NCBI GenBank assembly: GCA_012520235.1
Contig: JAAYOR010000109.1
Location: 1 to 39,951, forward strand
DNA length: 39,951 nt
Direction: 5' to 3'
Origin: Fretibacterium sp.
GTDB taxonomy: Bacteria > Synergistota > Synergistia > Synergistales > Aminobacteriaceae
The position numbers and the translations under genes are program-made. The notes under the pieces are model-generated. The model searched no databases, had not been told where the DNA came from, and worked only from the letters and a program-made list of their open reading frames with translations. Positions 1,531 through 39,951 of the stretch are shown piece after piece; within the stretch, counting starts at the first letter, position 1; every line of letters starts with the position of its first letter.

Positions 1531-2271
1531 ATGAGAAGCGGAAAGGTTATCGATATCGTTCAGGCCCGCATGGGCTCCTCCCGGCTGCCGGGCAAGGTGA
1601 TGAAGCCACTTTGCGGCAAGCCGATGATCGAGCATCTGCTGAACCGCCTGAGTCGGGCCGAGCGCGTCGATGAGCTTTGGGTGGCGACCACGACCTCCCC
1701 GAAGGACGACGAGCTGTGCGCTTTTTTGGAGTCCCGTGGCTTCAACCTGCACCGCGGGCCCGAGGACGACGTGTTGACGCGCTACGTTGAGACGGCTGAG
1801 AAAAGCGGGGCAGAGGTCATCCTGCGGCACACCGCGGACTGTCCCCTGCTGGACCCGGAGCTGGTTGATGCGATCACCCAGGCGTTTTTGGAGTCCGACT
1901 GGGACTATATGAGGCCCCTTCACGAGGACGGGATGATCCGCGGGCTGGACACCGAGATCTTCACTGCTGCGGCCTTGAACAGGGCGGACGCGCTGGCTCA
2001 GGACGCCCCCTCCAGAGAGCACGTGACGCTTTACATGTATCGCCATCCGGAGGCCTTCTCGTTTGGCGTCTTCCCAATGCCGGAGCGATTGAAACTCCCT
2101 GGGACGCGGCTTTGTGTGGACGAGGAGGACGATTTTCGTCTCATTGAGGCCATCTACAACGCATTGTATCGGGAGGGGGAGATCATTCCCTTTTCCGAGG
2201 TTCTGGAGCTTCTGAAAACAAATCCCGCACTCAGGGAGCTGAACAAGTCGGTGCAGCAGAAACATCCCTGA
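1531..2271 (+). CDS. SpsF-type cytidylyltransferase
   Basis: This is a nucleotidyltransferase of the SpsF (COG1861) family, which resembles the CMP-sialate synthetases. The nucleotide-binding signature IVQARMGSSRLPGKVM sits at residues 9-24. A conserved HTADCPLLDPELVD segment (about 96-109) supplies the acidic metal-binding residue, and ETAEKSG precedes it. By position just after the NeuB-type synthase, it probably activates the nine-carbon sugar as its CMP derivative. Classical pseudaminate or sialate loci use a NeuA/PseF-type enzyme for this step, so the SpsF assignment is notable and the exact substrate is inferred. The start ATG lies 7 bases after AAGGGG. The length of 246 matches the family. 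It is separated from the synthase by about 95 bp with no evident terminator. Confidence 0.8.
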   Translation: MRSGKVIDIVQARMGSSRLPGKVMKPLCGKPMIEHLLNRLSRAERVDELWVATTTSPKDDELCAFLESRGFNLHRGPEDDVLTRYVETAEKSGAEVILRHTADCPLLDPELVDAITQAFLESDWDYMRPLHEDGMIRGLDTEIFTAAALNRADALAQDAPSREHVTLYMYRHPEAFSFGVFPMPERLKLPGTRLCVDEEDDFRLIEAIYNALYREGEIIPFSEVLELLKTNPALRELNKSVQQKHP

Positions 2272-2316
2272 GGCGCTGTTTTTCGAGAAATTTTATTTTA
2301 TAAGGAGAGAAATCAG

Positions 2317-2934
2317 TTGTCCTACAAGACGGAACAGGAAAAATTCTGGGCGGGGACGTTTGGAGACGAGTACATTGCCCGCAACAAGAGCGACGCACTG
2401 CAAGGAGCTTGTACTGCGTTTTGGGCCCGTATCCTGGGTCGCTTGGGGCGGGTGGGATCGGCGTTGGAGTTGGGCGCGAACATCGGGCTGAACCTGCGCA
2501 GCCTCCGAGCTCTGCTCCCGGATGCGGAACTGGCCGGTGTGGAGATCAATGCGGCTGCAGCGGCGGAGCTGCGCGCCTGGGGTGGTGCGGAGGTCTTCGA
2601 GCGATCGCTCTTCGACTTTGCCCCCGGGCGTCAGTGGGATCTCGTCTTTACCAAAGGGGTGCTCATCCACTTGAATCCGGATAGGCTTCCCGAGGCCTAT
2701 GATGTCCTGCATCGTGCCTGTGGCTGCTATATCGTTGTGGCCGAGTATTATAATCCCACACCCGTATCCATCCCTTACCGCGGAAACGAGGACAAGCTCT
2801 TCAAGCGGGATTTTGCAGGGGAGCTGCTGGACCGTTTTCCCGACCTGCGCGTGGTCGATTATGGATTTGTCTGGAAGCGCGACCCCGTCTTTCCCCAGGA
2901 CGACATCACCTGGTTTCTGTTGGAAAAATCCTGA
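2317..2934 (+). CDS. pseudaminic acid biosynthesis-associated methylase-like protein
   Basis: A small class I SAM-dependent methyltransferase. The SAM-binding glycine motif LELGANIGLNL is at residues 50-60, the acidic end of the second strand (AGVEIN) at about 74-79, and WDLVFTKGVLIHLNP further on. The N-terminal TEQEKFWAGTFGDEYIARN matches the pseudaminic acid biosynthesis-associated methylase family (PseE-like). Its role in those loci is proposed to be methylation of the sugar or its carrier, but the acceptor is not established. The start is TTG at 2317, chosen because AAGGAG lies 9 bases upstream and no ATG fits the conserved N-terminus. It sits 45 bp after the cytidylyltransferase and probably shares its transcript. 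Confidence 0.8.
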   Translation: MSYKTEQEKFWAGTFGDEYIARNKSDALQGACTAFWARILGRLGRVGSALELGANIGLNLRSLRALLPDAELAGVEINAAAAAELRAWGGAEVFERSLFDFAPGRQWDLVFTKGVLIHLNPDRLPEAYDVLHRACGCYIVVAEYYNPTPVSIPYRGNEDKLFKRDFAGELLDRFPDLRVVDYGFVWKRDPVFPQDDITWFLLEKS

Positions 2935-3005
2935 ATCAGATTTTAGCTCGGAGCAGTCTTTTCATAGAATAATAGAAATAGAACATAGAAGAAGAGGGAG
3001 CACAT

Positions 3006-26398: not shown

Positions 26399-26819
26399 TC
26401 GGGCGCGCCGGCGACCCGGAAGGATGTGAAGATTAGACTCTCAAACTTCGCACAGACTAAAAAATAAATCCGCATAAGCAGGCGGCCGGCTCTTCGGGGC
26501 CTTGGAGAAAAACGGCCCCAAAGTTACCGGCCGCCTGCTTATGCGAAGTTTGAGCCTTTAAGGGGGCTTAAAAGGAGGATGGAGTGTTAGGGAGTGAAAG
26601 AGGTTTTTGCTCGGAAATTCTGAAAACCTATGCAGAAATTGCACTTTCCCTTATAATATTTACAATGTAAAAATGCCGCTCCTTGATTTCTCTCTTGCTT
26701 ACAGATCTTTTTTACCTCCATGAGGCGAAGTTTTCTGAATTTCTGAAAGTGAGGGACCTTGTGCCTGAAGGGCGGTTGTGTGGCAAGATACCGTGACGAG
26801 ACGGAAGGGGGGCAGTCTG
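26399..26819. other. gap before pilM with interrupted inverted repeat and -10 box
   Basis: This 421 bp gap has no well-supported gene. It contains the interrupted inverted repeat described separately, an AAGGAGG ribosome-like site at 26572-26578 in front of a 28-codon frame (26584-26670), and a TATAAT at 26652-26657 that could be the -10 box for the pilus operon. The -35 position for that box is weak. Confidence 0.5.
26440..26554. repeat. 28 bp inverted repeat with 22 nt insertion in one arm
   Basis: The right arm at 26527-26554 is the exact reverse complement of the left arm, except that the left arm carries 22 extra bases. In the left arm CTCAAACTTCGCA (26440-26452) is followed by an AT-rich insert, then CGCA again at 26471-26474 and TAAGCAGGCGGCCGG (to 26489). 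The insert is thus flanked by a repeated CGCA. The loop holds a second stem, GGGGCC with GGCCCC. It has no T-run, so it is not a simple terminator. Confidence 0.85.
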
Positions 26820-37825: not shown

Positions 37826-38183
37826 CGGGACTGTGGCGCGCCTGGAACGAGGAAAGCCCGAATATCTTGTTTGTTGTATTTGAGGAAGCGCTGATTAAAT
37901 GGCTTTACGAAAACCATGGGGCTCCGCCCCATACCCCGCGAGGGGACTAAGTCCCCTCGACCCCATTTATCCTTTTCTTGAGGGACGGTACTGATGCCCC
38001 TCAAGAAAAGGATTTACGGGTTCCAAGGGTCTCAGACCCTTGGTGGGGGGTTGGGGCAGCACAAAGGCAACTGTGCCTTTGCGCTGCAGGGCATCGGCTG
38101 CAGCGCCGACAACCTGTCGGTTGCCGTAAGCTGGCCGATTGCCGCGGTGAAACCCCCAAGGTCTTTTACTGGAGGGATAGGGA
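37826..38183. repeat. hairpin-mosaic region between ahcY and deaminase gene
   Basis: No gene is supported in this 358 bp gap. From 37916 it is a run of near-perfect hairpins. They are 37916-37932 (7 bp), 37939-37959 (9 bp), 37969-38013 (16 bp perfect), 38023-38043 (9 bp), 38056-38087 (13 bp with one mismatch) and 38106-38120 (6 bp). GCGCTGCAG (38081-38089) can also pair with CTGCAGCGC (38098-38106), competing with the fifth hairpin. AACCCCCAAGG (38151-38161) can pair loosely with 38038-38052. The ribosome site of the next gene is at about 38171. Confidence 0.85.
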
Positions 38184-39473
38184 ATGGCGACGTTGTTCAA
38201 AGATGTCTTGATGCTGGACGGGGAGCAGGATAGAGCGCGCCGAGGGCATCTGCTTGTCTCTAAGGGGCGGATTGAGTCGGTTCTGGATATCTCCGAGACG
38301 CCGCCCTCTGCCGATAAGGTTGTCGCCGGTCATGGACGCATGGCGGTCATCCCCGGTTTTGTGAACGCACACGGCCATGCGGCGATGATGCTGCTGCGCG
38401 GCCTGGGCGAAGAAGCGCCCCTGATGGAGTGGCTCCAGGAAAAAATCTGGCCGGTCGAGGAGAAGCTGACCCCCGAGCACATCTACTGGGGCACGTCGGC
38501 GGCCATCATGGAGATGCTGGGGACGGGCACCACCTGCTTTGCCGACATGTACTTTGAGATGGATAGAGTGGCGGAAGCTGCCCTTGGTGCAGGGATCCGC
38601 GCGGCGCTCTGCCGGGGGATCACGGCCGGAGTGCCGGGCAAGATCGAGCGGTCTTTAAAGGAGAACCTGGAGCTGGCCGAGACCTGGCACGGTCGAGAGG
38701 GGCTCCTGACCGTACAGATAGGTCCTCACGCTCCTTACACGGTCCCGCTGGAGGCCATGAAGACCATCACGGCCTCGGCTCGTGAGAAGGGGCTGGGGAT
38801 CCAATTTCATTTCCTTGAGACGGAGTGGGAGAGGAGCTATCTCCGTGATGAGCTCAAGAAAACACCTCAGGCCTACCTTGAAGAGACGGGGCTGCTCTCA
38901 GCCGGGACGGTGCTGGCCCACGCTGTGTGGCTCATGCCGTCGGAGGCGGAGAGCATGGATCTCTCTCAGGTGACGCTGGTCCACAACCCGTGCAGCAACA
39001 TGAAGCTGGGCAGCGGCGTGATGCCCTTGCACGAATGGCTTGAGCGCGATGTGTCTGTCGCGTTGGGCACGGACGGTGCGTCCAGCAACAACCGGCTGGA
39101 CATGTGGGGCGAGATGAGGGCGGCAGCGCTCCTCCACAAGGGGGTGACGCGCGACCCTGTGGCGGTCTCAGCTCTTGACGTCCTGCGCATGGCGACCTAT
39201 GAGGGCGCTCGGGCTCTAGGCTTTGCGCGGAAGGGGATGCTCCGGGAGGGCTGGATGGCGGACCTCGTCCTGGTGGACCTGGATAAGTCTCATTACGTCG
39301 GTGTGAACGAGGAGAACCTGGCGATGTTCCTCGTCTACGCGGGGAGCTCGTCGGACGTGACCGGCACGATGGTAAACGGCAGATGGCTCTACCGCAACGG
39401 CGATTACCCGACGATGGACCGGGACGAGATCCTGCAGAAGGTCCGGGAGGCGCGGGAGGCTATTACGAAGTAG
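38184..39473 (+). CDS. mtaD: methylthioadenosine/S-adenosylhomocysteine deaminase
   Basis: A metal-dependent amidohydrolase of the MtaD/DadD family that removes ammonia from 5'-methylthioadenosine, S-adenosylhomocysteine and sometimes 5'-deoxyadenosine. The barrel metal ligands His63 and His65 are in NAHGHAAMMLLRG. His209 (FHFLETEWE), His246 (LAHAVW) and Asp297 (GTDGASSNN) complete the site. The C-terminal beta segment (ADLVLVDLDKSH) rejoins the composite domain. At 429 residues it is full length. ATG at 38184 has GGAGGG about 7 bases upstream. With mtnA and ahcY nearby, it likely recycles SAM by-products. Confidence 0.92.
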   Translation: MATLFKDVLMLDGEQDRARRGHLLVSKGRIESVLDISETPPSADKVVAGHGRMAVIPGFVNAHGHAAMMLLRGLGEEAPLMEWLQEKIWPVEEKLTPEHIYWGTSAAIMEMLGTGTTCFADMYFEMDRVAEAALGAGIRAALCRGITAGVPGKIERSLKENLELAETWHGREGLLTVQIGPHAPYTVPLEAMKTITASAREKGLGIQFHFLETEWERSYLRDELKKTPQAYLEETGLLSAGTVLAHAVWLMPSEAESMDLSQVTLVHNPCSNMKLGSGVMPLHEWLERDVSVALGTDGASSNNRLDMWGEMRAAALLHKGVTRDPVAVSALDVLRMATYEGARALGFARKGMLREGWMADLVLVDLDKSHYVGVNEENLAMFLVYAGSSSDVTGTMVNGRWLYRNGDYPTMDRDEILQKVREAREAITK

Positions 39474-39585: not shown

Positions 39586-39951
39586 TTATTCCTGTGCCCA
39601 GTAGCGGTCGATCTCGACTCGGGCATCGGCCTCTGAGAGGTTGAAGATCCTGGCCACCCTCGCCACGGTTTCGTCCCGGGAAGCGCCAAAATCACGGCAC
39701 ATCCCCACGGCTCCCTGAATACTGCCCCTTGCCTCGCCTTCAACTCTGCCGAGCTCTATGCCTTCAGCCCTGCCGAGCTCTATGCCTTCAGCTCTGCCCT
39801 CAGCTCTGCCTTCCTCCAGTCCTGCGGCTCTGCCCCTGGTCAGAGCGCTATCCACTATGTTCACCTGGTAGCGCAGCCCGTCCTGGTAACGGTCAAAACG
39901 CGCGCGGTCCTCCGCTGAAAGAGCTAGGTAGTCCAGACGCTTCTTGGCCTC
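39586..39951 (-). CDS. Rpn-family nuclease/transposase-like protein, C-terminal part
   Basis: The frame runs off the right edge without a start, so only 121 C-terminal residues are seen. The visible part begins EAKKRLDYLALSAEDRARFD, then YQDGLRYQVNIVDSALTRGR, and ends with an FNLSEADARVEIDRYW helix. This is the usual tail of Rpn/PD-(D/E)XK-type proteins (once called putative transposase, TIGR01784). The middle is a charged repeat, GRAEGIEL-type units (about residues 48-64 of the fragment). In DNA it is two 24 bp copies at 39746-39793. The catalytic domain lies outside the window. These genes often occur in many copies in a genome; whether this one is mobile is unknown. Confidence 0.72.
   Translation of the reverse strand, partial: EAKKRLDYLALSAEDRARFDRYQDGLRYQVNIVDSALTRGRAAGLEEGRAEGRAEGIELGRAEGIELGRVEGEARGSIQGAVGMCRDFGASRDETVARVARIFNLSEADARVEIDRYWAQE
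39746..39793. repeat. two 24 bp tandem repeats in Rpn-like gene
   Basis: CTGCCGAGCTCTATGCCTTC begins each copy (39746-39769 and 39770-39793). The second copy ends with one base changed. A shorter degenerate unit follows. In the minus-strand protein it encodes repeats of the form GRAEGIEL. Confidence 0.85.

Follow-up and report, generated by a model that had tools for sequence, protein, structure and literature searches.

The ahcY-deaminase intergenic region

The window, i.e. the whole stretch of 39,951 nucleotides of Fretibacterium sp. DNA that was analysed, contains a co-directional gene set composed of an mtnA-like gene, ahcY and a deaminase gene (amidohydrolase family, MTA/SAH-deaminase-like). 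The gap between ahcY and the deaminase gene comprises 358 bp and harbors a stack of hairpins. At the end of the window, an open frame with a tract of EGRAEG/ELGRAEG repeats was noticed on the - strand (39586-39951), which presumably resembles Rpn-type (PD-(D/E)XK) transposase-like proteins.

In the initial annotation, the gap had been described as six or more consecutive hairpins around a central perfect stem of 16 bp, with mirrored halves and with two alternative stems having one strand in common. Every hairpin named there was recovered (all positions refer to the + strand). By an inverted-repeat listing and direct reading, the perfect 16-bp stem of the central palindrome (37969-38013) was located at 37969-37984/37998-38013, enclosing a loop of 13 nt. 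To its left lie the hairpins H1 (ATGGGGC-TCC-GCCCCAT, 37916-37932, by direct reading), with 7 bp and the 3-nt loop TCC, and H2 (CGAGGGGACT-A-AGTCCCCTCG, 37939-37959), with 10 bp and a 1-nt loop, i.e. 9 bp and a 3-nt loop. To its right follow H4 (CCAAGGGTCT-C-AGACCCTTGG, 38023-38043), with 10 bp and a 1-nt loop, one pair of which is T-A as opposed to G-C in sister copies, and H5 (38056-38087), with 14 pairs and one mismatch. The mirrored halves correspond to 58-nt arms (37927-37984/37998-38055) that are 74% complementary and constitute the largest inverted repeat of this type within the whole window. The alternative stem pair GCGCTGCAG/CTGCAGCGC resides at 38081-38089/38098-38106. Another inverted repeat, 24 nt in length, 92% complementary and with a 37-nt spacer, was found at 26466-26550.

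Folding of the 321 bases from 37880 to 38200 yielded -160.8 kcal/mol (z = -6.9) for the + strand and -167.7 kcal/mol (z = -10.6) for the - strand, which is thus the better folder. On either strand, none of 100 shuffled sequences was as stable. While the positions of the hairpins agreed with the initial annotation, the edges assigned there (37911-38161) did not, as the true start is located 27 bp further left at 37884 and homology to other copies extends to approximately 38166.

Copies of the element within the same genome

A search of the genome for further copies had been set beforehand as the refuting test for a regulator. It was positive and disclosed four further loci (contigs C34, C31, C2 and C17/C71), which are unrelated and have shared ends. 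The suggestion made at the outset, that the sequence may be a MITE-like repeat, was right in this respect. Complete copies are 218 to 309 bp long, have no transposase ORF and end in 15-bp terminal inverted repeats (TIRs) GGAARCRCTGATTAA; in the alignment, GGAAGCACTGATTAAATG marks the left end and TTAATCAGCGTTTCC the right one. C31, C2 and the C17/C71 pair possess both TIRs. Their target site duplications (TSDs) are TTAG/TTAG in C31, TTAA/TTAA in C17/C71 and an imperfect TTAA/CTAA in C2. Since the complete copies are short and dispersed and possess 15-bp TIRs and 4-bp YTAR duplications, we classified the element as a MITE. C17 and C71 contain half-copies at the contig end and the contig start, respectively. 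Because joining of the ends (...CATCAG and TACCG...) restores the loop CATCAGTACCG of C34, the two halves probably represent a single copy that was broken by the assembler within its hairpin.

The copy in the window (37884-38166, + strand) spans 283 bp and is homologous to the complete 309-bp element at positions 1-283 of the latter. Over these positions it is 91% identical to a 309-bp query built after the complete copies, and the C31 copy matches the whole query at 99%. Its left TIR GGAAGCGCTGATTAA (37884-37898, + strand) is the start common to the copies of this genome and, with up to two mismatches allowed, the sole match in the window, where 0.17 would be expected by chance. It is preceded by TTGA (37880-37883, + strand), probably the remnant of a YTAR-like left TSD, whose position equals that of the TSDs of the other copies and which has no right partner. 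From about 38166, the final ~26 bp including the right TIR are lost or diverged, and a right TSD is missing as well. As the right end is gone, the window copy should be immobile. A right module of approximately 90 nt (38057-38146, + strand), which comprises most of H5 and the alternative stems, occurs in C31, C34, C71 and the window copy. It is missing in C2, though this copy keeps both TIRs.

The genes neighbouring the other copies are thiD (C34), cbiC (C31), an M24 peptidase gene (C17) and ligA (C71); the single C2 neighbour gene examined gave no Pfam match. Therefore, the sequence is not tied to SAM recycling. In the same genome, an element of only 26 bp (L031, C23:23883-23908) consists of two TIRs arranged almost back to back with TTAA on both sides and is possibly the smallest derivative.

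Distribution of the ends and the candidate mobiliser

Among 83 genomes of the family, exact TIRs were counted in G008 (244), which was identified as Synergistaceae bacterium Pc512_bin33 (100% match over 2001 bp), in G024 (59), in G006 (32) and in the genome of the window, G000 (7). A reversed control pattern gave no match in these 83 genomes. Scanning of named genomes for TTAA followed by the TIR revealed at least 119 stretches, the matches listed belonging to Synergistaceae, Oscillospiraceae, Selenomonadales, Nitrosomonas, Gallionella and others. The same ends occur on palindromic MITEs of many phyla. The interiors between the TIRs vary by taxon and many of them fold as long hairpins; an exact scan of the named genomes with an internal 23-mer of the element gave no match. 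Identical 4-bp flanks were exhibited by 65 of the 93 TIR pairs examined, which came from Synergistaceae and from named genomes of further phyla; in 54 of the 65, the flanks were TTAA. This share is inflated, given that one flank was required to be TTAA in the named-genome scan; the agreement of the opposite flank, on which no condition was placed, is unaffected. In G008 (L137, C122), two TIRs of the same orientation lie 18 bp apart at 1459-1491 (GGAAGCACTGATTAATCAGGAAGCACTGATTAA), which suggests a nested or repeated insertion.

On two contigs of G008 (L127, L133), the exact 15-bp TIR precedes the start of an IS5-type transposase homologue by ~80 bp, and in G010 a TIR with one mismatch lies ahead of such a homologue; all of these transposase genes are interrupted by contig ends. 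G092 contains a complete IS5-group insertion sequence (IS) of 1226 bp with the related ends GGAAACGCTGAACAA/GGAACTGTTGATTAA and TTAA on both sides, whose transposase displays the Pfam domains DUF772 and DDE_Tnp_1. Judging by these ends, the mobiliser is most likely an IS5-group IS, which would act in trans; unlike such an IS, the element of the window encodes no transposase. An IS5-group transposase was not found in the own assembly (196 contigs). The only match to PF01609/PF05598 in this genome was an IS1182-like transposase on C7, which lacks these ends and was rejected as a partner, and the PF01609 loci L102 and L107 of G008 with nearby TIRs proved to be different elements or decayed ones. 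The C7 transposase gene (DUF772 and DDE_Tnp_1; L098/L099, G000:C7 about 1600-3005) sits within a CRISPR array, with repeats of the type CTTTCGAACCTTCCTTAGAGGGATGGAAAC on both sides.

The element corresponds to known IS5-family MITEs in that it is short, has no ORF, possesses TIRs and a 4-bp YTAR duplication, occurs in many copies and has ends like those at an IS5-group transposase gene of related genomes. It differs from them by its interior, which is made up of nested perfect hairpins that include a repeated two-hairpin core, and by an autonomous partner not found in its own assembly. In prokaryotes, a MITE and its partner IS may have only the borders in common (PMC3852290). A literature search by keywords gave no paper combining IS5, MITE, TTAA and target site duplication, and the matches listed for the letters of the TIR were apparently unrelated primer or sequence matches.

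Loop inversion and paired stem changes

Within the central palindrome, the 11-nt spacer CGGTACTGATG of the window copy (37986-37996, + strand) is the exact reverse complement of the spacer CATCAGTACCG of the sister copies: the two agree at all 11 positions when one is inverted and at only four in direct orientation. In C31 and in C2, the sister spacer carries a single substitution, and its halves are found in C17 and C71. In addition, three stem pairs of the window copy are changed on both sides. At the alignment columns 33/49, A-T stands against G-C of the sisters, with a G-T intermediate in C34, while T-A replaces C-G at columns 95/121 and G-C at columns 147/153. At stem position 102/114, the window copy has no pair.

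Paired changes of this kind are usually read as selection on an RNA, but here they accompany an inverted loop and point to template switching of DNA. For template switching between the arms of inverted repeats, homogenisation of the arms and inversion of the spacer have been described as outcomes (PMC8604942), and both were encountered in the window copy. The published spacer changes are shorter and occurred in a yeast coding sequence, whereas the one described here concerns an 11-nt spacer and copies of a mobile element in one bacterial genome. The paired changes could have arisen through RNA selection, which would leave the inverted loop unaccounted for; we infer that both are best explained by template switching between the hairpin arms during replication. 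The evidence makes a strong single case from one copy and does not give a rate; the inversion is relative, so that either orientation may be ancestral. The example calls for caution in covariation-based RNA discovery within palindromic repeats.

A double-hairpin core shared with a second type of MITE

The first two hairpins of the window copy, H1 and H2, form a module that was also found bare and in a second, unrelated type of MITE. Its core motif GGGGCNNNGCCCCNNNCCCCGC (37918-37939, + strand), to whose double hairpin H1 contributes the first half, is dispersed in Synergistaceae, with 93 matches in G008, 39 in G003, 28 in G020, 24 in G024, 16 in G001 and 7 in the own genome; the reversed control gave none. 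Among the 119 named-genome matches listed, the core was present only in L187, L229 and L250, all of one Synergistaceae genome. Of the cores at the loci examined, some reside within IS5-type MITEs and some lack recognised ends. Others, in G001 and G020, are located between CAATGTCAACAACTTAA ends (L041, L050, L056, L272), which may resemble those of the IS4/IS231 group. Where both CAATGTCAACAACTTAA ends were found, they are bordered by repeated flanks, e.g., ATTTTCGAAT and GTTATCTAAT, indicating a duplication of ~10 bp unlike that of the IS5 type. That the ends are shared over many phyla and that one core resides in two MITE types suggests a route to mapping the origins of MITE interiors.

Origin of the hairpins and the question of regulation

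We interpret the hairpin stack as a decayed, now immobile and non-autonomous MITE of the IS5 type and assign to this reading a probability of about 0.94. An ancestor of ~309 bp with the 15-bp TIRs GGAARCRCTGATTAA would have entered a YTAR target in the gap separating ahcY from the amidohydrolase-family gene of a Synergistaceae bacterium, mobilised in trans by the transposase of an IS5-group IS having identical ends. Subsequently, the right end would have been lost, leaving a copy unable to move. Repeated template switching, by which one hairpin arm is copied onto the other, best explains the perfect stems and the flip of the central loop relative to the sister copies. What was directly observed comprises multiple copies with shared ends and target duplications, unrelated neighbours, the truncated right end, relatives without the insert, the exact loop inversion and the paired stem changes. 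A decayed IS5-type MITE is of an ordinary kind; two details are uncommon, the loop inversion and the core shared with a second type of MITE.

The occurrence of the two-hairpin core as bare short repeats in Synergistaceae raises the question of whether the array belongs to the REP/BIME/REPIN palindromes spread by a RAYT (Y1) transposase, which are likewise dispersed palindromic units in mosaic arrangements (PMC2817692, PMC3116915, PMC3733652). Full copies of the element, however, bear classical TIRs and TSDs, features that REPs do not have. A GTAG or CGTC tag as defined for REP palindromes (PMC3733652) is missing in the core according to direct reading of 37910-37966. Moreover, Y1_Tnp (PF01797) was detected in the core carriers G008 and G024, but not in the four others tested (G000, G001, G003 and G020), so that most of the tested carriers lack a RAYT-type gene; in the case of G003, this applies to a genome with 39 cores, which also speaks against RAYT as the agent spreading the bare core. 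An origin as a RAYT-driven array is thus highly improbable. A more tentative idea, which we regard as possible yet doubtful, is that the double-hairpin core of ~50 bp (GGGGCNNNGCCCCNNNCCCCGC and the second hairpin) is a unit of its own in Synergistaceae, which exists bare, inside MITEs with IS5-type ends (4-bp duplications) and inside those with CAATGTCAACAACTTAA ends (~10-bp duplications). It might spread without RAYT, either because various transposon shells capture it or through template-switch conversion.

The decayed MITE also has to be weighed against functions at the locus. The initial annotation had considered a regulatory RNA linked to SAM recycling, i.e. a riboswitch or attenuator of the operon that switches between the two stems having GCGCTGCAG in common. 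Such an RNA would be in line with the very stable fold of 37880-38200, the alternative stems, the position between ahcY and the amidohydrolase-family gene and the paired stem changes. This proposal was not supported: copies lie beside unrelated genes such as thiD, cbiC and ligA, the orthologous site of the compared relatives is devoid of the element, of the two strands it is the one antisense to the operon that folds better, and the stems in question are part of the module missing from one copy. Rfam gave no match at the gathering score and at E<=1 only miRNA precursors far below the cutoff. Thus, a regulatory origin is very unlikely, a two-stem switch having next to no chance, and a false riboswitch candidate is removed. 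Copies, ends and empty sites are checks to be made before hairpins are read as RNA. A MITE by origin may still have become an element for mRNA processing, stabilisation or partial termination that sets the ratio of AhcY to deaminase. In favor of this, it lies inside the co-directional gene set, provides ~283 bp of structured RNA immediately ahead of the probable ribosome-binding site of the deaminase gene (GGAGGG, 38171-38176, + strand, by direct reading) and, in complete copies, contains a T-rich stretch after the GGGGGTTT/AAACCCCC stem near the right end. On the other hand, no rightward terminator was called in the window copy, the one leftward call compares with 0.6 expected by chance, and signs of selection beyond those explained by template switching were not found. 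We consider this exaptation rather unlikely and infer little or no regulatory role of the element at this locus; a small secondary effect on the operon transcript is possible.

In the relatives, the ahcY-deaminase gap measured 4 to 47 bp at 15 of 20 comparable loci, as against 358 bp in the window. Longer gaps were present in G012 (288 bp; the closest match, with an ahcY identity of 90%), G029 (308 bp) and G015 (719 bp), and only chance 11-mers were matched between them and the gap of the window. In G026, two loci exhibited 1.3 kb between the aligned genes. The gaps of ~290-310 bp in G012 and G029 (L288, L300) lie at the same site and are filled with sequence unrelated to the element of the window; the ahcY-deaminase site may repeatedly take inserts.
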